Assembly: GCA_017882785.1 (NCBI GenBank)
Contig: JADGOV010000016.1
Coordinates: 1 to 42,126 of the forward strand
Length of the DNA: 42,126 nt
Direction: 5' to 3'
Origin: Frankiaceae bacterium
GTDB lineage: Bacteria; Actinomycetota; Actinomycetes; JADGOV01
The notes beneath the pieces are model-generated. The model was not told the origin of the DNA, did not search any database, and saw nothing but the letters and a program-made list of their open reading frames with translations. This document shows, in pieces, positions 25,806-42,126 of this stretch. Both the position numbers and the translations under genes were made by a program. The number at the start of each line of letters is the position of its first letter. Positions within the stretch are counted from its first letter, which is position 1.

Positions 25806-26921
25806 ATGAGCCGGAGTGTGCGTCCTGAACTGCCGGCCTCAGCAGAGGAACGGGAGGCCCTCACGCATCTGGCAGAGACCGCCTCCTCCGTCCGGGCCGA
25901 GGACGGCTTCGACGTCGGCGCCGTCCACTCTTGGCTGTCGGCTCGACTGGACGGGCTTGAATCTCTCCCTGTCGTACGGCAGTTCACCGGCGGCGCGTCC
26001 AATCTGACGTATCTGCTGAGCTACCCCGGCCGGGAGCTGATCCTGCGACGCCCGCCCAGGGGCAGCAAGGCTTCCTCGGCCCACGACATGAAGCGCGAAT
26101 ACTGTGTCCAGCAGCGGCTGCGCCCGCTCTACCGGTACGTCCCCGAGGTGCTGGCCCTGTGTGACGACCCCGCCGTACTGGGCTCGGAGTTCTACGTCAT
26201 GGAACGCATCCAGGGCCTGATTCCCCGTCGCCGGATGCCCGAGGGCGTGACGCTGAACGAGCAGCAGGCCCTCCTGGTGTCCACCAGGGCGATCGACGCC
26301 CTCGTCCAACTCCATCAGGTCGACCCGCGGAGCGCGGGTCTGTCCGACCTCGGCCGCGGCGCCGGCTACGTCGAGCGCCAAGTACGCGGCTGGTCGCAGC
26401 GCTTCCGTGCGGCACGTACGCCTAACGTGCCGGACTTTGAGAAGACCATGGCCTGGCTGGAGGGGAACCGGCCGGACGACGTAGCAACCTGCGTGATCCA
26501 CAACGACTTCCGGCTGGACAACCTGGTCCTCGACCGCGCCGACCCAGTGCGGGTCGTGGGCGTGCTCGACTGGGAGATGGCCACCCTCGGCGACCCGCTC
26601 ATGGACCTCGGCAGCGCTCTGGCCTATTGGGTCCAGGCGGACGACGACGACCTCATGCAGGCCTCCCGGCGGCAGCCGACCCACCTGCCCGGCATGCTGA
26701 CCCGCCGCCAGGTCGTCAACCACTACTGCTCCCGCACAGGCCTGCTGGCCGACAACTGGGTGTTCTACGAGGTCTTCGGCCTGTTCCGGCTGGCCGTCAT
26801 CGTCCAGCAGATCTACCGACGTTTCCATCTCGGCCAGACCACCAACCCCGCATTCGCGGACTTCTGGATATCGGTCGACTACTTCGACAGCCGCTGCCGC
26901 GCCCTGGCCTCGCTGGGCTGA
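25806..26921 (+). CDS. APH-family phosphotransferase (ACAD10/11 kinase-type)
   Basis: 371 residues. The N-lobe has QFTGGASNLTYLL and ELILRRPP; the catalytic loop is VIHNDFRLDNLVLD and the metal-binding motif is VLDWEMATLGDPLMDLG. This combination is the kinase domain found in ACAD10/11 and bacterial LvaA-like proteins rather than an antibiotic kinase. It should phosphorylate the hydroxyl of a 4- or 5-hydroxyacyl-CoA, which the adjacent dehydrogenase then processes. The ATG lies just after the dehydrogenase stop, so the two are almost certainly one operon. Confidence 0.88.
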   Translation: MSRSVRPELPASAEEREALTHLAETASSVRAEDGFDVGAVHSWLSARLDGLESLPVVRQFTGGASNLTYLLSYPGRELILRRPPRGSKASSAHDMKREYCVQQRLRPLYRYVPEVLALCDDPAVLGSEFYVMERIQGLIPRRRMPEGVTLNEQQALLVSTRAIDALVQLHQVDPRSAGLSDLGRGAGYVERQVRGWSQRFRAARTPNVPDFEKTMAWLEGNRPDDVATCVIHNDFRLDNLVLDRADPVRVVGVLDWEMATLGDPLMDLGSALAYWVQADDDDLMQASRRQPTHLPGMLTRRQVVNHYCSRTGLLADNWVFYEVFGLFRLAVIVQQIYRRFHLGQTTNPAFADFWISVDYFDSRCRALASLG

Positions 26922-27076
26922 CGCCATGCCGTTCACTTGGGCGTGACCCGCAGCCGCCGCGGTCCCTGCGGACAGTACGGGTCCGAACAGCGCCGGTCCC
27001 ACAGCCGGACCGGGGGCCGGCACGGTCGACGCAGCCACCGCCGCGTCCCGGCCGGGTGGGCGGGAGATCCCGGCAC

Positions 27077-27319
27077 GTGACGGCCGTCCACGAGGTCCTC
27101 GACGAGGTGCAGTCCCCTGCTGTCGACGTCCGCCGCGTCCTCACCGCCGTCGGCGCGGGAGACCTGCGGCAAGCCCGGGCCCGGCAAGTCGGAGACGGCG
27201 CCTGGACCCCCGAAATCCTCCTCATCGGCACCGACATCACCGACGCGGACACGGCGCGGCTGCAGCAGCTGCTCACCTCACTGCCCCGCGTGTCGATCGC
27301 CGCAGTCCGCGAAACGTAG
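27077..27319 (+). pseudogene. C-terminal remnant resembling BTAD/LysM-type regulators of mobile regions
   Basis: An 80-codon open frame ends with WTPEILLIGTDITDADTARLQQLL and VSIAAV. From memory this resembles the tail of large BTAD/LysM-containing proteins common in actinobacterial plasmids and integrative elements. No start signal or upstream domains are present, so a truncated remnant is likelier than a functional small gene. Codon choice remains GC-rich at third positions. The assignment is tentative. The flanking bases 26922-27076 and 27320-27550 show nothing I can name. Confidence 0.35.
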
Positions 27320-27557
27320 ACGATGTCGTCGTTGGTCAGGTGGGACGGGTGGCGGCGTCGGTGAGATGACCTCCGGGTTCTACCAGCGACATCCGGGCAG
27401 CCACGCTGCCGGGGCCCGAGCGTCCAGCAGAATGTCGGACCCACGTCGTTGCCCTGTGGTCCGTGCGGCATCCGAAGTTCCGGTTCTGCCTCGACCCGCC
27501 GGTCGAGCAGTCGGCCACCAGGGAGGTTCTCCTCGCCCTGGGACGGAACATGCGCGT

Positions 27558-27573
27558 CGCGCAGAGTTGCGCG
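27558..27573. promoter_or_regulatory. Candidate TetR operator
   Basis: CGCGCA and TGCGCG flank GAGT, a perfect 6-bp inverted repeat. It overlaps the putative -35 of the TetR-MFS operon, the usual layout for an autoregulating TetR repressor. Confidence 0.5.
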
Positions 27574-27596
27574 GTGTGTAGATTCTCGGTTATGGT
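27567..27596 (+). promoter_or_regulatory. Candidate promoter of the TetR-MFS operon
   Basis: TTGCGC, an 18-base spacer and TATGGT place the transcript start at or next to the GTG at 27603, so the TetR mRNA may be leaderless. No Shine-Dalgarno is visible before that GTG, which fits. Confidence 0.45.
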
Positions 27597-27602
27597 CTCA
27601 GG

Positions 27603-28238
27603 GTGGACGAGGTTGCGCTCTTGGGTCGTCGGGACCGGAAGAAGACCGAGACCCGTGAGGCGCTGCGCTCGGCTGCACTGCGACTGGCGATCGAGCGCGG
27701 CTACGACCGGCTCACTGTGGAAGCGATCACCGAGGCGGCGGACGTGTCGCTGCGGACCTTCTTCAACTACTTCTCCTCGAAGGACGACGCGCTGCTCGGT
27801 CCGGATGTGGACCGCGCCGGGGAACTCGCGGCCGCGGTGGCGGCGCGACCGGCGGGGGAGGCTCCGGTCGCGGCGCTGCGCGCTGTGTTCCTCGATCTCG
27901 CCGGATCCTTCGCCGAACGGCAACCGATGTGGCAGGCCCGGGTGGATCTTGTCCGAGCCAATCCCCAGCTCTGGCCACGGATGGTGGCCGGGTTCACCAC
28001 GTTCGAGCGCTCTGTGACCGAGGCGGTGGCGGCCCGCACCGCCTGCGACCCGGACGTCGACCTGTACCCCAGTGTGGTAGCGGCCGCGGTGGTCGGCGCG
28101 CTGCGCGTCGCCGTGGCGCAGTGGCGCGCCGCGGCCGAGAGCGCGTCCCTTCCCGATCTGCTGGCAGCGGCCTTCGACGTCCTCGCCGCCGGCCTGACCG
28201 CACCCGGATCCGCCCTGACGACGCGAACGTCCCGATGA
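27603..28238 (+). CDS. TetR/AcrR family repressor
   Basis: 211 residues. The N-terminal HTH reads [39 protein letters not shown], standard for TetR. The ligand-binding C-terminal domain is helical and carries [28 protein letters not shown]. The stop overlaps the MFS transporter ATG as ATGA. It very probably represses itself and the transporter and is released by a drug-like ligand. A candidate operator lies at 27558-27573. Starts with GTG. Confidence 0.93.
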
Positions 28239-29812
28239 CCACCTCGACGGCTGAGACGGTCGCACCGGCCCTGTCCCACCGGCAGATCCTTACGATCCTG
28301 TCCGGCCTGCTGCTGGGCATGCTGCTCGCCGCGCTGGACCAGACCATCGTCGCCACCGCCCTGCCCACCATCGTGGGAGACCTGCACGGCCTCACCCACA
28401 TCGCCTGGGTCACCACCGCCTACCTGCTCGCCGCCACGGTCACCGCCCCGTTGTGGGGAAAGCTCGGTGACCTGTTCGGCCGCAAGTACCTGTTCCAGGC
28501 CGCCATCGTCATCTTCCTGGTCGGCTCGGCGCTGTCCGGCACCGCGCACTCCATGATCGAGCTGATCGCCTGCCGCTTCGTGCAGGGCCTCGGCGCCGGC
28601 GGCCTCATGGTGCTCGCCCAGGCCTCCATCGCCGACGTCGTGCCGCCACGGGAACGCGGAAAGTACCAGGGCTACTTCGGGGCGGTGTTCGGCGCCGCCA
28701 GTGTGCTCGGCCCGCTGCTCGGCGGGTTCTTCACCGACCAGCTGTCCTGGCGGTGGATCTTCTACATCAACGTGCCCATCGGCATCCTCGCACTCGTCGT
28801 CACCACCGCCGTGCTGCCGAACACGATCGCCAGGGCCAAGCCGGCCATCGACTACGTCGGGTTCGCCCTACTCGCCGCAGCGATCAGCTGCCTGGTCCTT
28901 TTCACCACCTGGGGCGGCGCCCAGTACGCCTGGGGCTCGCCGACGATCCTCGCCCTGATCGCCGCGACGGTCGGGCTGCTCAGCGTCTTCCTCGCCGTCG
29001 AGCGGCGCGCCGCGGAACCCGTCATCCCGCCGCGGCTGTTCGCCAACCGCACGTTCAACGTCGCCAGCGGGGTCAGCTTCATCATCGGCTTCGCCATGTT
29101 CGGGTCGATCATCTACCTGCCGCTGTTCCTGCAGCTGGTCTCGGGCGCCTCCGCCACCAACTCCGGCCTGCTCATGCTGCCGCTGATGGCCGGGCTGCTC
29201 GTCGCGTCCATTGCCAGCGGGCAGGCCATCAGCCGGACCGGCCGGTACAAGGCCTTCCCGATAGCCGGCACCGCCCTCGCCGCGGTCGGGATGCTCCTGC
29301 TGTCCACGATGAGCGCCGCCACCTCCCGCGCTGTCGCCAGCCTCTACATGGTCGTGCTGGGCGTCGGCCTCGGCCTGGTCATGCAGGTCATGGTTCTCAT
29401 CACCCAGAACTCCGTCGACCGCTCCGACCTGGGTGTTGCGACCGCCACCGTGTCGTTCTTCCGCTCGGTCGGCGGCTCGGTCGGTGTCGCGCTGTTCGGG
29501 GCGCTGTTCACCAGCGGGCTCACCCGCAACCTCACCCACGACCTGCCCGCAGCCGTCGCTTCCCGGCTCGGCAGCGCCGGCGGCGGCAGCCTGCAGGCCG
29601 TCGGGACCCTGCCCGCCGACCAGCAGCTGGCCTACAAGACCGCCTTCGCCGACGCGCTGACCGCGGTGTTCACCTACGCCGTACCCATCATGGCGGTCGC
29701 CTTCTTCCTGACCTGGCTGCTCCACGAGGTGCCCCTGCACACCCGCGGCCAGTCCGGTACAGACACCGGCCCGCAGGTCGCCGCCGACCCCGCTACGGTG
29801 GCCCGCGGGTAA
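28235..29812 (+). CDS. MFS drug-efflux transporter, DHA2 family (14 TM)
   Basis: 525 residues with about 14 hydrophobic segments. Motif C-like and DHA2 signatures are visible: [22 protein letters not shown] in the first helix, motif A as [13 protein letters not shown], and [35 protein letters not shown]. It should export drugs or dyes using the proton gradient. It is coupled to the upstream TetR gene by a four-base overlap. A substrate cannot be predicted. The C-terminal 25 residues are polar and probably disordered. Confidence 0.93.
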
Positions 29813-30555: not shown

Positions 30556-31803
30556 TCAACCCCGACCTGCGTCGGTGCTCGCGGCTTGGAGCTGGTGCAC
30601 CAGATCCGTCTCGGTGGGAGCCGACTGTAGGGCTTGGACGACCGCGGCGGCGGCGACCGTCCAGGCCCGGGTGGACTTCGCGCTCAGGGAGGCCAGCGTG
30701 ATCTCCCCGCCGAGCCGGACGGCGGGGTCGAAGGGGACCTCGACGACCGCGGCGGCGCCCAGCTCCCGCAGGCGCGCCCGCAACGCCATAGCGATGTGGG
30801 GGTCCTCGGGCCCGCCGTCGTGGCCAAGGACAACCACCACCCGGGACAGCAGGCCGTCGGGGGCGGCGACCTGCCCGGCGTCGGCGCGCATCACGGCCAG
30901 GGCCTCCTCGAGCCCGGCCAGCGCATCGATCGAGACCAGGCACGGCAGCACCGCCGCGTCCGCGGTGCGCATCGCCGCCAGGTACGCCTCGTGCCCAGGG
31001 TTGTTGCCCGTGTCGGTCACGGTGAGCCGGTAGTAGGTGTCCAACACCCGCCGCGCCGCCAGTACGTCACCGGCCGTGAGGATCGGCCGGCCGCGCACTG
31101 ACCCGATCACGTCGGCGTGGGAGGTCTGCGGCGCGGTGTAGCCGCCGAGGTTCCCCGCCGAGCGGACGGTGCTGGTCCCGCCAAGCAGCTCGGCCAGGCC
31201 GCGGTCCGGGTCGCCTTCGGCCCGGCGGTTGAGGGTGCCGATGGACTCCGACGCTTCCCAGACCACGACGTAGCCGCCGCGGATGTGGCCGAGGATGCCG
31301 GCGAGGATCAGCGCCGTCGGCGTCTTCCCCGAGCCGCCCTTGGGGTTGGTCACGACAATGTTGACGGCCCGCGGCCAGGTGGCCCGGCGGATCGTGTCGA
31401 TCGCCGCGCGATGCGCCAGCTCCGCGGGGTCGGGGGTCACCTTCAGCCGGCCTCCGGTGGCGCGGGCCAGCCGACCCCGCCACCCCCAATGGGCCTGCCG
31501 CGGCTTGGCCGGTGGTGTGATCGAGACGGTCGTGGACGCCGCCGCCGCCGGTGCGCTACGGCCGGTGGCGGTCTTCGCCGAGCTAGGGCTAGGCCTTCTA
31601 ACCGCCTCGCCGCCCGTCGCGTACCCCCTGTCGCCAGACCGCGAGCGGTCCTGCAATATCACTTCAGATTCGACGTTCCTCGGTGGCGGTGGCCCCCCCG
31701 GGTCGACCACCGCGTCGGCCTCCGGACTCCGCTCCGCGGGGTGGGCCCGGTTGAACAGATCGAAGAAGCTGTCACTGTCGGTCGTGTTATCACTCTCAGT
31801 CAT
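30556..31803 (-). CDS. ParA/MinD-like ATPase of mobile-element type
   Basis: 415 residues. An N-terminal 120 residues are disordered and acidic then Pro/Ser/Ala-rich. The ATPase domain has a deviant Walker A (NPKGGSGKTP) with Lys before the double Gly, and a switch II-like TVTDTGNNPGHEAYL. The residue after GKT is Pro rather than the usual Thr/Ser. The ParA strand normally reading DxDPQ is VVVWEASES. From memory, related proteins sit in conjugation or integration modules of actinobacterial elements. No ParB, centromere repeats or conjugation genes are present, so it is an orphan. Confidence 0.8.
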   Translation of the reverse strand: MTESDNTTDSDSFFDLFNRAHPAERSPEADAVVDPGGPPPPRNVESEVILQDRSRSGDRGYATGGEAVRRPSPSSAKTATGRSAPAAAASTTVSITPPAKPRQAHWGWRGRLARATGGRLKVTPDPAELAHRAAIDTIRRATWPRAVNIVVTNPKGGSGKTPTALILAGILGHIRGGYVVVWEASESIGTLNRRAEGDPDRGLAELLGGTSTVRSAGNLGGYTAPQTSHADVIGSVRGRPILTAGDVLAARRVLDTYYRLTVTDTGNNPGHEAYLAAMRTADAAVLPCLVSIDALAGLEEALAVMRADAGQVAAPDGLLSRVVVVLGHDGGPEDPHIAMALRARLRELGAAAVVEVPFDPAVRLGGEITLASLSAKSTRAWTVAAAAVVQALQSAPTETDLVHQLQAASTDAGRG

Positions 31804-33593: not shown

Positions 33594-35225
33594 CTAGCCA
33601 TGTCGTGGGTCGAAATGTGTCGTGATCGACGGAACCGCGAGCGTCGCGAAGGGTGATTCAGAGAAGGTGTAGGGGAACAGGGGCCCTTCGTCCGCTCGCC
33701 CAAGTTGGTGCCGGAGGTTGCCGAATGCGCGGTAGATCACCGGATACGGCTGGCCGTTGTAACGAGTGAGGATGTCTCGCCACGTACGTGGTGAGTGCTC
33801 AATGAACGACTTCATATCCGCGGTGAGTTGGGCTTCGGTCATAGCGTCGACGTTCTCCGGCGGCGGCGGCATGACCGTGGCTGCACTGTGTGTAAAACTG
33901 TCGGCGTCGAAACCCGGGCCGATTCCGATAGTACAGTCCAACCCGATCTTTGATGCGGTACCGGGTGCGTCAAAGGTGTCGTTGATCTTCGGGTCAACGG
34001 TCATTGTATTGCACTCGGGAATGATGATCGTGTCACGGTGTGGCATATAGCGGAACGCCATGTTGGCTGCGATGGCGTTCTCGTCCCAAATGTCGACATC
34101 GTCGTTGAAAACCATTGCAATCTTCGGCAGCGCCTGTTTCGAGCAGGTAAGCATGATACCCAAGGCCTGCTTGGCATCGCCAGCTCCCCGCGGCCGGATC
34201 TTCGCGTAGGCGATGTTTGACAGTCCGCCAAGCGGAGCCCGAACCTCGACGACATCTATGCCAGCCATCTGCATTGCAGTGAACAAGTCAGCCTCAATGG
34301 CTGGCAGCTGCAACATATTATCGGTGTACCAGGGATACTTGCCACCGATAGTCGCGTACTGGTAGATCGCATTCTTCCGGTGGGTGATGCAGTGGACCTT
34401 GGCGCGGAAGTTGTGCTTGATACCACCGCCGTACATTCCGGAGAACTCCCCGTACGGCCCCTCATCGTACGCCAGGCCCTCGGTGTCGATGAGCTCGCAC
34501 TCGAGCACGATCTCAGCGTTCGCCGGGACTTCAACATCGATCGTCTCGCACCTGACCATCTTTGCCGCATGGCCGTAGAAGGCGCCCAGGACTTCGAAGT
34601 CATCAGTCTCGGGGGGTACACCCGCAAGTGCCGCAATGTGATCAAGAATGGGTCCACCGATCACCACTGCGATCTGGAGGTTCTGTCCCTTGCCTTGAGC
34701 CGCGATGGCATTGAGACGCGCCCGGTGCGACGTGCACGTCATGTCAAAATTCTTCTCGGTCGCCGTGCGGAACATGCTCCGGTACATTCCCCAATCCGGA
34801 ACATTAGTCTCGGGACTCTTGCTGATCACAAAGTTATCGTCGCAGTAAGCGTGTCCATCGCGATCGTGATGCAAGAACAACGGAAACTTCGTCAGGTCGA
34901 CATCGTCACCCTTGAGGATGACCTCCTTGCAGGGCGCCGTGTCGATGATCTCGGGTTTGATCCGCCCCTTCGCTCTATCGACAATCTTGAGACCTGTCTG
35001 GGTCTTGTCGCACTCCAGGGCCCAGGCGTACATGTCCTGATTCGAGTAAGCGTTCGCCAGAAACTGGAACTCGCAGTCTTTGATGTTCTCGACCAGCACG
35101 GCTGTGGTCGGATGATCCTCCATCACCCTGGGAAGGTCATTAACATTCGTCTCACCGCTGACGCGGACGAGCATTCCCGCCCTCTCCAAGTCGTTCACGA
35201 ACTCGGTCATACTCTGCTGGGGCAT
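33594..35225 (-). CDS. UbiD-family prenylated-FMN-dependent decarboxylase
   Basis: 543 residues. The prFMN-site residues are visible: Arg149 in DWGMYRSMF, and Glu255 and Glu260 in DEGPYGEFSGMYGGG, matching the R-E-E set of UbiD/Fdc enzymes. Later NIAYAKIRPRGAGDAKQALG also fits. It should reversibly decarboxylate an aromatic or unsaturated acid; the substrate cannot be read from sequence. GC content, especially at third positions, is visibly lower than in neighbours, suggesting transfer. No UbiX prenyltransferase is in the window, so the cofactor must come from elsewhere. An SRPBCC gene lies 66 bases upstream on the same strand. Confidence 0.9.
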   Translation of the reverse strand: MPQQSMTEFVNDLERAGMLVRVSGETNVNDLPRVMEDHPTTAVLVENIKDCEFQFLANAYSNQDMYAWALECDKTQTGLKIVDRAKGRIKPEIIDTAPCKEVILKGDDVDLTKFPLFLHHDRDGHAYCDDNFVISKSPETNVPDWGMYRSMFRTATEKNFDMTCTSHRARLNAIAAQGKGQNLQIAVVIGGPILDHIAALAGVPPETDDFEVLGAFYGHAAKMVRCETIDVEVPANAEIVLECELIDTEGLAYDEGPYGEFSGMYGGGIKHNFRAKVHCITHRKNAIYQYATIGGKYPWYTDNMLQLPAIEADLFTAMQMAGIDVVEVRAPLGGLSNIAYAKIRPRGAGDAKQALGIMLTCSKQALPKIAMVFNDDVDIWDENAIAANMAFRYMPHRDTIIIPECNTMTVDPKINDTFDAPGTASKIGLDCTIGIGPGFDADSFTHSAATVMPPPPENVDAMTEAQLTADMKSFIEHSPRTWRDILTRYNGQPYPVIYRAFGNLRHQLGRADEGPLFPYTFSESPFATLAVPSITTHFDPRHG

Positions 35226-35291
35226 CAGCCGTGCTGCCTCTCAGTAGATGATTATGCTGGATTCCTGAGCCGAACTGAGCGCCGGCCTGCG

Positions 35292-35714
35292 CTAGCGAAA
35301 GGCAGGCGCGGGCTGCCCAGTCTCGACGTACTGTTGAAGTTGGTGCATCAGCGCACCCCAGAGCGTGTTGCACTTGCGAAAACTTCCCGCGGTATTCGGC
35401 CAGCCAGCATGCGTGAACTCGAGTAGGGTCCGTCCATCATCGGTGGCCGAAATGCGGTAGTCGACCGTAGTACCAACCGAGTCGCCAGGGCCATCAACGC
35501 ATTCCCAGGCGACGTGGGCAGGCGCCTGCGACGTGACAATGTGCCAGCTGAAATGAGGGTGGCCCGCGAACTTGAGATTCCAGACGCTGCCCATCTCACC
35601 GGTGCCTTCAACCAATGCGGTGTGCCAGCTCCTCATGCCATCTGGCGTCGCGATCGCGTCGAACACCTGCTCCGGGATGGCCTTGATCTTGATCTCATGA
35701 GTGATCTCGGTCAC
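35292..35714 (-). CDS. SRPBCC (START/AHSA1-like) domain protein
   Basis: About 140 residues. The N-terminal THEIKIKAIPEQVFDAIATPDGMRSWH begins the SRPBCC fold. HFSWHIVTSQAPAHVAWEC and DGRTLLEFTHAGW, with a C-terminal helix ending at LQQYVETG, complete it. These proteins bind hydrophobic ligands in a helix-grip pocket. GTG 35714 has TTGGAGG six bases upstream, an excellent start; longer in-frame extension lacks one. It shares the lower GC of the UbiD gene and precedes it, so the two probably form a transferred operon. It could bind or hand over the UbiD substrate. Confidence 0.85.
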   Translation of the reverse strand: MTEITHEIKIKAIPEQVFDAIATPDGMRSWHTALVEGTGEMGSVWNLKFAGHPHFSWHIVTSQAPAHVAWECVDGPGDSVGTTVDYRISATDDGRTLLEFTHAGWPNTAGSFRKCNTLWGALMHQLQQYVETGQPAPAFR

Positions 35715-36302
35715 GATTGGCCTCCAAACTCGCTCAACGCCAAACTGGCGGGTTGACGCCGGGGCAGATCTAGGCACTGAGAACTGGCCCATTGCACGAC
35801 GCGATAGTACCGTCACTCTGCGTACTACGCCAGCTACGCGAAACCCCCGCGGTCAGTGCCAGACCGCGTCCCTGACGCGCTTGTCCATGGCAGGGAAGCT
35901 GGTCATTCGGTCATTCGGCACCCTCCCAAGCTGTGTCTGGAAGACACGGGGAGCAACGAGGATCACACCTACGTCAAGCGATGGAGGGGCTTCGAGGCCT
36001 CGCCCACATGTGCCGGTCGCGGGCAGGGCCAATCATCGCGAGTACGGGCTCGCACAGTGTCGCCGTGACCACAGGTGTGCTGTCACTTTCCCCGATGCCT
36101 TCTACCGCGCGTTCGCCTCCGCCTGCTGCTCCGCATCGTCCGTCCCAGCGGGGACCATGTCGGGCAATCTCGGCCGCCAGGCTGGTCTCGTGCGGTGCTC
36201 GCTGCAGTGCGACACGCCGTTCTCCTGCACAGTCGCACAGGCGGCCGTCACCGAAACGCAGCGGGACATCTCCAATCTCCGGCAGTCGGATCCCTATTCT
36301 CT
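35715..36302. other. Upstream region of the SRPBCC-UbiD pair; no supportable gene
   Basis: About 590 bases. Near 35730-35755 a short imperfect repeat (TCAAC-GCC and GGC-GTTGA) could form a stem in the leader of the SRPBCC gene. Beyond that I find no convincing frame. A minus-strand frame with CDC and GRW-like pieces was considered but matches nothing I know. Confidence 0.4.
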
Positions 36303-36732
36303 TCAGCGGGACCGTGGCCGCATGGACGTGCGGTCCCGGGCTTCGCCTCCAGGCAGCAGCTGGAACATCACGTGGAGGCCGACGAGCCCGTGCTCCGGGT
36401 GGTCGAAGGCCTCCGGGACCGTAGCGAATATCTGAAAGCCCAGCGCCTGCCACAAGTGCACAGTGGCCATGTTGGTCGCCGAGTGCCCGGCCTCCTCGGC
36501 CATGGCGATCCGACTCAACCATGAAGCTCGCGGTGGCGACGTGTGACCCGCGGCCGGGTCGGTCCGGACTCATCTTGGCTGAGCCCAGGATGGTGTCGTC
36601 CTCGAGCGAGAGGTTCTGGGGGTAGGCGTAGGTCTGGCCGGCGGCGACGATGGCGGAGAACGAGGGGCGCCCAGTCCGACGGTGACCCCGTCCAGGCCGG
36701 CGACGCCAGCTCAGCTCAGCGGTGGTGACCAT
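36303..36732 (-). pseudogene. GNAT acetyltransferase, internally deleted
   Basis: On the minus strand one frame gives SAIVAAGQTYAYPQNLSLED, GSAKMSPDRPGRGSHVATAS and a shortened acetyl-CoA loop (HGRGGRALGD). A second frame then gives MATVHLWQALGFQIFATVPE and AFDHPEHGLVGLHVMFQLL, the usual GNAT C-terminus. About 20 residues expected between the loop and the ATVHLWQ helix are missing and the frame changes, so an out-of-frame deletion has inactivated the gene. Its 5' end overlaps the end of the permease gene. Confidence 0.75.
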
Positions 36733-37936
36733 GACGGTGGTGACGCTTGCCCGCCAGCGCGTCGTGCTGCCCGCCGTGGCCGTGTCCGGTCGCGTCCTTG
36801 GGGGTGCCGTCCATCATGGCGAGCATCGCCCGGCCGCCCGTGCGCAGGAACCGGGTCACCAGTGCCGCGGCCAAGAGCAGGAAAGCGATATTGAGAAAGG
36901 CGGTGTAGTTCCAGGAGAACTGCGCGGTCTCGACCCGGGCGTGCCTGCCGGACGGGATCAGGCCGGCGACGCCGAATATGATCTCGACGAGGTAGCCGGC
37001 GACGACTGCGGCGGTGTAGAAGGTGGCCAGCAGGAACAGCGCCATCCGCCCGCCGTAGTACTTCCGGTAGATCATCAAGATGGGGAGGATCAGCAGGTCG
37101 GCGAAGATGAAGCTGACCACGCCGCCGAAGCTGATCCCGCCGTTCCATAGCACCGCCGCAAGCGGCACGTTTCCGATCGAGCAGACGAAGCTCAGGACGG
37201 CCACGAGCGGCCCCACGAGCGGTCCCCACAGCTTGGCGAGCAGCGGGTGGTCGACAAGGAAGAAGCGCTGCCAGAAGCTGTCCGGCACCCAGGCGCCGAT
37301 CGCGCCGGCGAGGAGCAACCCGAGCACGATGTCGCGCAGGACTGCGGCCCATTCCATGACGAAGATGTGGCTCACCGAGGTCACCCCCTCCGCGGAGGCG
37401 AGCCGGCGCCACATCGAGCCGCCCTGGGCAACGCTCATGTCCATCGCGGCGTGGCCTTCCATCGACCCCGCCACACCGCGGTCCGCCTGCCGCCGGGCGG
37501 CGTCGAGGAGCCGCGGCCGTAGGAACGCCCGGAACAGCAGCGCGATCACCACGATCATGATCGGGCCGCCGATGAACTCGCCGAGAGCGAACTGCCAGCC
37601 CATCAGCAGGATGAGGATGATCCCGAGCTCGATCACCAGGTTGGTGGAGGCGATCTCGAACGCCATCGCCGACGTGAAATGCGCCCCCTTGCGGAACAGC
37701 GACCGGGCCAGCGCGACCGCGGCATACGAGCAGGACGACGACGCCGCGCCGAGGCCGGCGGCGACCGCCAGCGTCTTCGGCCGGTCGTCGCCGAGCACCC
37801 GGATGATCGTCGCCCGATGGACGACCGCCTGTACCGCTGCGGAAAGGAAGAACCCCAAGATCAGCGCCCAGGTGACCTCCCAGGTCATGGAGACGGCCAG
37901 CTCCAGCGCGTGGCCCAAGGCGGGCAACAGGTTCAA
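36716..37936 (-). CDS. ArsP/UPF0718-type membrane permease with His-rich tail
   Basis: 406 residues, eight to nine hydrophobic segments. GAASSSCSYAAVALARSLF and a later FVCSIGNVPLAAVLW give the paired half-motifs of the permease family (ArsP_1/DUF318) that includes organoarsenical exporters. The last 25 residues are His/Gly-rich (GHGHGGQHD, RHHRHGHHR), suggesting metal binding. A degraded ArsR tail lies directly upstream on the same strand, fitting an ars-like unit. Metal rather than arsenical transport remains possible. Confidence 0.8.
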   Translation of the reverse strand: MNLLPALGHALELAVSMTWEVTWALILGFFLSAAVQAVVHRATIIRVLGDDRPKTLAVAAGLGAASSSCSYAAVALARSLFRKGAHFTSAMAFEIASTNLVIELGIILILLMGWQFALGEFIGGPIMIVVIALLFRAFLRPRLLDAARRQADRGVAGSMEGHAAMDMSVAQGGSMWRRLASAEGVTSVSHIFVMEWAAVLRDIVLGLLLAGAIGAWVPDSFWQRFFLVDHPLLAKLWGPLVGPLVAVLSFVCSIGNVPLAAVLWNGGISFGGVVSFIFADLLILPILMIYRKYYGGRMALFLLATFYTAAVVAGYLVEIIFGVAGLIPSGRHARVETAQFSWNYTAFLNIAFLLLAAALVTRFLRTGGRAMLAMMDGTPKDATGHGHGGQHDALAGKRHHRHGHHR

Positions 37937-38800: not shown

Positions 38801-39023
38801 TCGGTGGTGGCAGTGCAATAGCCAGCGCCAGCGCCGCACCGATCCGGAGATCTTGACCGCCGATGCTGGAACCGGTCGGCGTGAAGGGAGTCGTGGTGGT
38901 GCTGATCTGGATTCTGGTGGGATCAGGCCACATGGTTTCGGGTGCCATGCTGACCCTGGGATTGTGGACTCCGAGGTGTCCAAACCGGGACCCTCGCGGT
39001 AGACAGGCAGCGTGGCTGTTTCG

Positions 39024-39288
39024 TCACGTCCTGGAACGGTAGTGGAGGTGAACTACGCCGTTGCCAATGGCGTTCGTCCGGCGTTCGAGCTCCAGGCGGA
39101 CATGGTCGGGAGGAGCCTCTGCCGCCTCCCACCACGATGGGCGTGACGAACAGGTGGCACTCGTCGACGCACCCGGCCTCGACCGCCTGGGCGGCGGGGC
39201 CGGGACCGGCCACGGTGATGTCACGTCCCGCTGTCGCTTTCATCTGTCGGACCGCTTCGGGATCGAAGTCCCGCTCGATCCGCGTCAT
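39024..39288 (-). pseudogene. Dihydrofolate-reductase-like (RibD C-terminal fold) remnant
   Basis: One minus-strand frame gives TRIERDFDPEAVRQMKATAG, AAQAVEAGCVDECHLF and VTPIVVGGG. After a shift near 39120 a second frame gives DHVRLELERRTNAIGNGVVH and LHYRSRT before the stop. These are the C-terminal two thirds of the actinobacterial DHFR-like oxidoreductase family. The N-terminal NADPH-binding part is absent; upstream codons to 39492 are open but do not match it. Inactive. Confidence 0.65.
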
Positions 39289-39539
39289 GCCGCCGCAGCT
39301 TCGTGCCGCCGTGCGGGCGACCCCCGCCTGATCCGACTCGGTGCTGTCCATCTCGGGGGCCGAAGGGACGTCCATCCAGGGGTGCACCAGCCCGGATGGC
39401 AAGCGAGTGTCCTTATCCCCGCTAGCCTTGTTGACTTGCGCCTGCGTGAGGCCTTTGGCGGCTTCGCGGTAGAGCGCCTTACACTTTCCCACGCAGAGAG
39501 CCGTGCCGACATTCTGGGAGGTTTCCAGTAAAGCGACGC

Positions 39540-40138: not shown

Positions 40139-41323
40139 TCAGGAGACAGCCCGGCCGCCGATCACCTCGCGCAGCCGCACCCGGTGGCCGGTGATGAGTA
40201 GGGCGCGCCGGTAGATGGAGGAGGCGAGCGAGACGAGCAGCAACGCGGCAGCGGCGGTCAACGCCATGGCGAGCAGGAGCTGATAGATGGGAACCTCGCC
40301 GGAGGCCCAACGGGTCGGCATCGCCAGCGGTGCGGTCAGCGGGAACATCGAGACCGCGACGCTCCACCCGCTGCCCGGGTCGGAGGTGACGACCGTGACC
40401 GCAAGCACGTAGCCGATGATGAGGGTCATCGTGACCGGCAGGATCGCCGAGTTGACCTCGGTGATCCTGTTGATGAGGGCCCCGCTGGCCGCGAACAGGA
40501 ACGCGTAGAGCATGAACCCCAGGGCGAACCATGCCACCGCCAGCGCGATGTCGCCGGCCGCAACCGGGGGCAGCCCGATGTTGTCGGTGATCTGCACCGC
40601 GACGGCGAGCGGCGCCGCGAGGACGAGCAGCTGCACGAGCGTGGCCGTACCGACGGCCAGCACGGTGCCGAGGAGCACCTGGCTGGGGCGCAGGGTGGCG
40701 AGCAGCACCTCGGAGATGCCGGTGGACTTCTCCATGGCGACGGCGGTGGCGATGGCGGTCCCGGCGAAGATGATTGCCACGTACAGGACGATCCCGACGC
40801 CGAAGCCGACGCCGGCGCGTCCCTCGTCCTTTACCCGCCCGACGGTGACCTGCTGGGGCGGCCGGACCGACTGGAGGTCTGCGACCTGCTGTGGGCTCAG
40901 TCCTGCCTGGGCTAACCGGCGCGACGTCTGCAACGCGACGACGACCTGCGCCACCACGACCGGGAAGCTTCCCCCTGCCTTGGCCGAGGCGTAGAGCGTC
41001 TCCCCGGCGAGTCCGGCGGTGGCGTGACCGTCGCGCACGGCTTGCCGGACGGCGTCCTGGTCGCCGCGGGACACGTACTTGACGTGGAAGTCGGCGGTCT
41101 TCCCGGCCGCGTCCAGGGTCGCTACTACGTCCGCGGGGGCCTTGCCGGCGGTGGCGAGGGTGTACGTCGTCGGGCCGTTCTTACCGAGGATCTGGGGCAG
41201 CGCGACCCCGGCCAGTGACAGCAGCAGCAACAGTCCGGTGACGACCTTGAACGACCGAGACTTGACGTTTTCGACGAGCCCCCGCTGAGCCACCAGACGG
41301 GTGCCCTGCCACCCCGTGCCCAT
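40139..41323 (-). CDS. ABC-2 type transporter permease (NatB-like)
   Basis: 394 residues. One N-terminal transmembrane segment (about 25-45) precedes an extracytoplasmic domain of roughly 120 residues. Five or six C-terminal segments follow. MEKSTGISEVLLATLRPSQVLLG is the signature cytoplasmic loop of the NatB/YhaP ABC-2 family. It pairs with the ATPase gene upstream; the ATPase stop and this ATG share one base (TGATG). Likely exports ions, peptides or drugs; the substrate is unknown. Confidence 0.9.
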   Translation of the reverse strand: MGTGWQGTRLVAQRGLVENVKSRSFKVVTGLLLLLSLAGVALPQILGKNGPTTYTLATAGKAPADVVATLDAAGKTADFHVKYVSRGDQDAVRQAVRDGHATAGLAGETLYASAKAGGSFPVVVAQVVVALQTSRRLAQAGLSPQQVADLQSVRPPQQVTVGRVKDEGRAGVGFGVGIVLYVAIIFAGTAIATAVAMEKSTGISEVLLATLRPSQVLLGTVLAVGTATLVQLLVLAAPLAVAVQITDNIGLPPVAAGDIALAVAWFALGFMLYAFLFAASGALINRITEVNSAILPVTMTLIIGYVLAVTVVTSDPGSGWSVAVSMFPLTAPLAMPTRWASGEVPIYQLLLAMALTAAAALLLVSLASSIYRRALLITGHRVRLREVIGGRAVS

Positions 41324-42126
41324 CAGCGCACCCCTGCCGGGTCGAGGGTCCGGCCGGCGGCGGCGAGGAACAGTTGCGACAGGGTGGGCAGGTCGAGCCC
41401 GAAGTCGACGACCCGCCCGGCCGCCCGGGCGGCGTCCAGGAGGTCGAGCGGGTCGGTGCCGGGCGGGAAGGCCAGGCGCAGCTGGTCGGCCTCGTCGCTG
41501 ACTACGGTGACATCGGCGTAGGGGAGCAGCCAGTCGCGGTTCGGCGATTCCACATGGAGTCTCAACTGTCGCCGGCCCGACGATGCCCGCAGCGTGGCGA
41601 CGTGGCCCTGGAGCACCGTGCGCCCACGGTCGACCATGGCGATGTCCTCGCAGAGATCCTGCACGAGGTCGAGCTGGTGGCTGGAGAACAGCACAATGCA
41701 GCCGCCGCGGGCCCGCTGCTGCAGGGTCCCGGACAGGCTGGCTACGGCCACCGGGTCCAGGCCGCTGAACGGCTCGTCGAGCACGATGACCGCGGGGTCG
41801 TGCACCAGGGCCGTGGCCAGTTGGAGGCGCTGCTGCATGCCGCCGGAGAGCCTGTCGGTGCGGTCAGCCCACCGGTCGTCCAGGCCCAGCTCCTCGAGCA
41901 GCCCGCGGGCTCGCCTCGTCGCGTCCCGACGGGACAGCCCGTGCAGCCGCCCGAAGTGGACGACCTGGTCACCGGCCGGCATCCCGGGGTAGAGCCCACG
42001 TTCCTGCGGCATGTACCCCCAGCGACGGCGGGTCTCCTCGCCGACGGGACGGCCGTCGTAGCGCACCTCGCCGCGGTCGGGGTTGAACACCCCGAGCATG
42101 ATGCGCAACAGCGTCGTCTTGCCGGC
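41323..42126 (-). CDS. ABC transporter ATP-binding subunit, 3' part (runs off the right edge)
   Basis: The visible 267 codons begin inside the Walker A (AGKTTLLRIML). The Q-loop region (YMPQERGLYPGM), signature LSGGMQQRLQLATAL, Walker B VIVLDEPFSGLDP and the switch His in FSSHQLDLVQD are all present. The C-terminal 80 residues form the regulatory extension usual in NatA/CcmA-like exporters. It is coupled to the permease gene downstream. The start codon lies outside the window. Confidence 0.93.
   Translation of the reverse strand, partial: AGKTTLLRIMLGVFNPDRGEVRYDGRPVGEETRRRWGYMPQERGLYPGMPAGDQVVHFGRLHGLSRRDATRRARGLLEELGLDDRWADRTDRLSGGMQQRLQLATALVHDPAVIVLDEPFSGLDPVAVASLSGTLQQRARGGCIVLFSSHQLDLVQDLCEDIAMVDRGRTVLQGHVATLRASSGRRQLRLHVESPNRDWLLPYADVTVVSDEADQLRLAFPPGTDPLDLLDAARAAGRVVDFGLDLPTLSQLFLAAAGRTLDPAGVR

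Follow-up and report, generated by a model that had tools for sequence, protein, structure and literature searches.

A 42,126-nucleotide stretch of Frankiaceae DNA (hereafter the window) carries a gene of the UbiD decarboxylase family directly beside a gene for a small SRPBCC protein. The arrangement raises the question of whether the two genes form a functional unit and, if so, what an SRPBCC protein might contribute to a UbiD enzyme. The features of the window are listed below.

33594..35225, minus strand: UbiD-L, 543 amino acids, ATG start, complete open reading frame; UbiD family, long clade (Pfam PF01977, PF20695 and PF20696)
35226..35291, minus strand: intergenic gap of 66 nt between the SRPBCC stop and the UbiD-L ATG, both genes co-directional
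35292..35714, minus strand: SRPBCC/AHSA1 partner, 140 amino acids, GTG start at 35714, complete open reading frame (PF10604 and PF08327)
35721..35725, minus strand: ribosome-binding site GGAGG, 6 nt 5' of the SRPBCC GTG, read from the sequence
36716..37936, minus strand: ArsP_1-type permease, co-directional with and upstream of the pair; normal high GC3
30556..31803, minus strand: open reading frame without a match in the Pfam scan
38923..39492, minus strand: open reading frame with only a partial RibD_C match in the Pfam scan, possibly a broken reductase gene
25806..29812 and 40139..42108: APH-type phosphotransferase, MFS exporter and DrrA-like ABC transporter pair

A compositionally distinct gene pair

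An earlier note, made from the sequence alone, had singled out this pair for its base composition, its ribosome site and its intact catalytic residues. The pair is real: complete UbiD and SRPBCC/AHSA1 genes lie on one strand, and their common direction and short spacing are consistent with a single transcript. The ribosome site before the SRPBCC gene is as good as had been claimed, with GGAGG at a distance of 6 nt from the GTG. Total GC is 0.575 for UbiD-L and 0.607 for SRPBCC in a window of 0.697, and in a 1-kb profile every stretch outside the pair has at least 0.65. The low total GC is partly intrinsic to the protein, because relatives whose UbiD-L genes have a GC3 of about 0.9 reach a total GC of only about 0.64 all the same. 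The real compositional anomaly is the gap in GC3 between the pair (UbiD-L 0.733, SRPBCC 0.730) and the three flanking open reading frames measured, namely the MFS gene (0.923), the ParA-like frame (0.889) and the permease (0.926); in this form the reported difference from the surrounding genes holds. The ParA-like frame is the one at 30556-31803 (minus strand), which by eye resembles a gene for a ParA-type ATPase. Repeats between 31.5 and 38.5 kb are short and mostly imperfect, and no transposon or element border was assigned around the pair.

Conservation of the pair and of the cassettes around it

The search of other genomes for UbiD-SRPBCC pairs that the earlier note had proposed was carried out. 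A UbiD scan of genome contigs returned 19 loci, 18 with a complete gene (61-68% identity) and one fragment (L021), which shares its MAG with L005 and hence is not independent. The 18 complete genes derive from Antrihabitans, Mycolicibacterium, Ancylobacter, Aquabacter, Xanthobacteraceae, Neoroseomonas, Acidisoma and Acetobacteraceae, together with one Hyphomicrobiales, one betaproteobacterial and one Chloroflexota MAG. All 18 loci and the fragment have an SRPBCC gene of the partner family upstream of UbiD-L and in the same direction, with profile scores of 177-234 bits. Three more UbiD-L members, from Methylobacterium nodulans plasmid pMNOD02 (61%), G046 (69%) and G297 (68%), are paired as well, so that the SRPBCC gene stands upstream on the same strand at 22/22 UbiD-L loci besides the window, in several phyla. 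The pair is neither peculiar to the window nor of normal composition there, the two outcomes that the earlier note had named as counting against its proposal. The search was built on patterns from the window proteins and reaches close members (61-69% identity); remoter UbiD-L members might lack the partner. Distances among UbiD-L and among SRPBCC proteins are correlated (r 0.877 over 20 loci, with 0/5000 permutations as high), which is partly expected from shared descent. A literature search, covering mostly papers outside subscription, found no publication on the pair.

Two loci of unusual appearance were set apart from these counts or reinterpreted. The MAG that holds L005 contains a second copy of the cassette (L055:6746-10000), left out of the counts, in which SRPBCC and UbiX flank UbiD-L; its UbiD-L and FUSC genes match at their ends only, with internal gaps that represent either real deletions or an assembly artefact. 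An apparent fusion of FUSC and SRPBCC at L013 (a 521-amino-acid open reading frame) was rejected, the transporter having its own stop and SRPBCC its own start and ribosome site.

The partner follows this particular kind of UbiD. Full-length UbiD-L members score at least 1029.7 bits against the UbiD-L profile and other UbiDs at the examined loci at most 209.8, a separation by which UbiD-L appears as a discrete long clade within the UbiD family. A census of 345 same-class genomes found UbiD-L (E up to 1e-120) in three, including the window's own, and SRPBCC profile matches in 53 at E up to 1e-10; scores of 189-212 bits were confined to the same three UbiD-L genomes, the next best being 97 bits. 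A draw of 396 genomes across the phylum contained UbiD-L (E up to 1e-100) only in the window's own. Control loci of other UbiDs (L026-L035 with 1.5-kb flanks, L038, L039 and L051-L053) lacked a partner-family SRPBCC in 15/15 cases. One of them, on a plasmid of Legionella lytica (L052:5001-6437), encodes an orthologue of the second, shorter UbiD of the cassettes described below (63% identity to the Antrihabitans protein), with neither UbiX nor SRPBCC within 5 kb. Because this orthologue stands without SRPBCC, the partner appears to track UbiD-L and not UbiDs in general.

At the 18 full loci (flanks of up to 6 kb), the pair is frequently part of a larger cassette that includes UbiX (15/18), the second, shorter UbiD (13/18), which retains the catalytic Arg and Glu residues, and a FUSC-type (FUSC_2) transporter (10/18). 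Among these five cassette genes, SRPBCC alone accompanies UbiD-L at every locus. UbiX follows UbiD-L at 11 of the 15 loci, precedes it at L018, where it sits between SRPBCC and UbiD-L, and stands apart on the other strand at L003, L004 and L010. The second UbiD is either divergently oriented or more distant, and together with FUSC it occurs in at least three arrangements. On M. nodulans pMNOD02, SRPBCC and UbiD are separated by a UbiX that the plasmid gene table omits (L036:11295-11967); the tblastn match to this UbiX runs in two frames, indicating a frame-broken gene or a sequencing error. M. nodulans was consequently rejected as an independent case of a pair without UbiX.

None of UbiX, the second UbiD and the FUSC transporter was found in the window (the first two sought by tblastn). 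The claim that UbiX is missing is correct for the window copy but not for the system, given the 15 relatives with UbiX at the locus and a UbiX elsewhere in the same genome. That gene, on contig C108, is the only one in the genome above the family cut-off, and it adjoins a UbiD whose score for menaquinone decarboxylase (TIGR03701) is 633 bits, above the cut-off of 495.9; the open reading frames beside them presumably encode, from their appearance by eye, a prenyltransferase and a radical-SAM enzyme. With UbiX on C108, prFMN is presumably made and can reach the window UbiD-L in trans. All six relative genomes tested likewise encode UbiX, including those of L005, L007 and L017, whose loci lack it.

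Beyond the cassette genes, no common pathway emerges across the loci. Twenty neighbouring open reading frames from L003, L004, L007, L011 and L016-L018, picked mechanically and some perhaps not genes, included 10 without a Pfam match. Recurrent among the neighbours are generic ABC ATPases, short-chain dehydrogenases (L009, L015 and L018; 28-30% identity) and an amidohydrolase, the remainder being mixed. The amidohydrolase (Amidohydro_2) is orthologous in three Ancylobacter genomes (L020:1103-2143, L019:1259-2299 and L009:1307-2260; 50-90% identity) and may still have a role in those cassettes. A remote amidohydrolase lies near the cassette at L004 and a P450 at L016. Since no neighbour kind is found at every locus, the pair has the look of a self-contained, portable unit.

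The two proteins

UbiD-L exceeds the Pfam gathering thresholds for UbiD_N (29.2 against 24.3 bits), UbiD (169.3 against 23.3) and UbiD_C (72 against 24.2), and extends about 110 residues past the UbiD_C match. The catalytic Arg-Glu-Glu network, reported as intact, consists of R149, E255 and E260, which align with those of solved UbiDs and are invariant across the 21 aligned members. By family assignment UbiD-L is a putative decarboxylase of the UbiD superfamily, carrying the catalytic set. It scores 215.4 for NCBIfam TIGR00148, under the cut-off of 244.85, and lies far under those of TIGR03701, VdcC, PpcA/B, PRK10922 and the BagN/FevL models. The window protein keeps 194/204 residues that are invariant in the 20 other members retained; its 10 departures compare with 0-5 in 18 of those 20 and 13 each in L016 and L037. 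In sequence this fits a gene that has diverged yet remains intact. The predicted structure of UbiD-L is of low confidence (pLDDT 41).

The SRPBCC partner likewise scores above Pfam gathering, at 48.7 bits for AHSA1 and 41.1 for Polyketide_cyc2 (thresholds 27.4 and 22.1, respectively), and its AlphaFold2 model (pLDDT 91.4) has the SRPBCC helix-grip fold. The closest solved fold among the best 50 of 1606 Foldseek matches is 2m89 (TM-score 0.86 by query length), an Aha1-domain protein of Colwellia psychrerythraea that is the closest solved relative in both sequence and fold among the matches listed; 2m89 lacks the W57 and the GPG motif (75-77) of the partner family, and we know of no link between it and a UbiD. 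Folds named within these best 50 are Aha1, CalU16/DynU16, PR-10/Bet v 1 and PYL; neither a Pba3/4-like fold, as in LpdD-type chaperones, nor an HpaC-like flavin reductase fold of the PhdC type is named there.

The SRPBCC of the window keeps all 19 residues on which the 19 other members retained agree. The invariant pairs F55/W57, W70/C72 and H102/G104 are spaced i,i+2 on strands, and C115, W119, L122 and L126 share one face of the last helix, a placement in the model that would be expected of residues lining a cavity. Seven AHSA1 relatives whose genomes lack UbiD-L (L044-L050) served as a comparison for the partners. E7, W57 and N116 distinguish the partners from all seven, and C72 and the GPG motif each differ from six; H6, H102, W105, C115 and W119 are common to both groups. 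The pocket-type residues H102, W105, C115 and W119 may be inherited and not UbiD-specific, because all seven relatives without UbiD-L share them.

The role of the SRPBCC partner

The pair is very probably a horizontally acquired decarboxylase module. For its second component, a role as assembly or maturation factor or subunit of UbiD-L, proposed by analogy, has a likelihood somewhat short of even, and the reading as a whole, a horizontally acquired prFMN decarboxylase module in which SRPBCC acts with UbiD-L in one of these capacities, is put at about an even chance. In the mechanism envisaged, the UbiX on C108 would make prFMN and SRPBCC would act directly with UbiD-L: by binding the cofactor or the apo-enzyme it would help to load or oxidatively mature prFMN, or it would serve as a small subunit. 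Holo-UbiD-L would then reversibly decarboxylate an aromatic or heteroaromatic acid, and the FUSC transporter of some cassettes hints at an aromatic carboxylate as substrate.

Several UbiD enzymes with partners provide the comparison. In one study, LpdD is described as the prFMNH2 chaperone of the gallate decarboxylase LpdC, binding reduced prFMN, and VdcD as belonging to the active oligomer of the vanillate decarboxylase VdcC/VdcD (PMC10865409). As in the window, each of these systems joins a UbiD to a small dedicated partner other than UbiX, and the best PDB match of UbiD-L by sequence is the 'Phenolic acid decarboxylase' 7ae4. The same study likens LpdD to the proteasome assembly chaperone Pba3/4 (PMC10865409), whereas the window partner has the SRPBCC/AHSA1 fold; UbiD-L, for its part, scores 170.6 where the VdcC cut-off is 650. 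PhdC, as described in a second report, matures the prFMN of the phenazine-1-carboxylate decarboxylase PhdA and has an HpaC-like flavin reductase fold (PMC13040415). PhdA/PhdC resembles the window pair as an actinobacterial UbiD with a partner that matures, or in the window may mature, the cofactor, but the flavin reductase fold differs from that of SRPBCC. Phenylphosphate carboxylase, with two UbiD-type subunits and others, recalls the two UbiDs with catalytic residues in most related cassettes; UbiD-L, however, falls far under the cut-offs of TIGR02723 and TIGR02724, and the window has no second UbiD.

The chief alternative is that SRPBCC is a separate pathway enzyme or carrier, which would bind the acid or the product of UbiD-L and cyclise, dehydrate, hydrate or pass it on; the substrate-delivery or hydration module suggested in the earlier note is of this kind. 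SRPBCC folds form small-molecule pockets, the Foldseek matches include ligand-bound PR-10 and PYL proteins, the Pfam family names polyketide cyclases, and the invariant residues are placed as a cavity lining would be in the model. Candidate pathway genes also stand near some members (the amidohydrolases of L009, L019, L020 and L004, the dehydrogenases of L009, L015 and L018 and the P450 of L016), yet none is present at every locus or orthologous beyond Ancylobacter, which would be odd for a step in a fixed pathway. Gene linkage fits either a cofactor helper or an enzyme that shares its substrate or product with UbiD-L, and does not tell the two apart. An enzyme or carrier role is a possibility to be taken seriously, but a role in assembly, maturation or as a subunit is somewhat likelier and is favoured here, because LpdD, VdcD and PhdC have cofactor or subunit functions and no other pathway gene is constant.

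It is unlikely that the pair in the window is a non-functional remnant in decay, left behind when the other module genes disappeared. The missing UbiX, second UbiD and transporter fit such decay, as do the 4 of 7 nearby open reading frames scanned that have no family match, the frame-broken UbiX of the M. nodulans cassette and the 10/204 otherwise invariant UbiD-L residues that differ; against it, both reading frames are uninterrupted, the residues invariant in each family are retained at 194/204 and 19/19 positions, including the catalytic set, a good ribosome site precedes the SRPBCC gene, and UbiX can be supplied from elsewhere in the genome. A highly improbable reading is that a mobile segment passes the two genes on together without any functional interaction between them: foreign composition and a patchy distribution (3/345 same-class genomes) would suit it, but the pair is kept in several phyla while neighbouring genes and their order vary, the second UbiD and FUSC being placed in three or more ways, and both genes are present even where UbiX is inserted between them (L018 and, frame-broken, L036).

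SRPBCC may, as a tentative proposal held at less than even confidence, represent a further kind of prFMN-handling protein or obligate UbiD partner and define a UbiD clade that works only with it. Such dependence would explain why SRPBCC persists at loci that have lost or never had UbiX and the remaining cassette genes. Active preparations of some UbiD enzymes are difficult to get, and a UbiD clade with SRPBCC as its one constant companion offers a concrete two-protein system in which to examine diversity in UbiD maturation, as well as a new handle on the enzymatic carboxylation and decarboxylation of aromatic acids. The authors of the LpdD study expect wide diversity in UbiD maturation, with further chaperones yet to be discovered (PMC10865409); a helix-grip fold goes unreported for prFMN handling or UbiD partnership in the accessible portions of both papers (PMC10865409, PMC13040415).

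One further peculiarity of UbiD-L may concern its cofactor site. Residue 144, five before the catalytic Arg, is Asp (Glu in G046), and the second, shorter cassette UbiD also has an acidic residue there, at a position occupied by Asn in menaquinone-type UbiDs. That Asn is a metal ligand, and because an acidic residue replaces it, the cofactor metal site of the cassette UbiDs may differ from that of the menaquinone-type enzymes.
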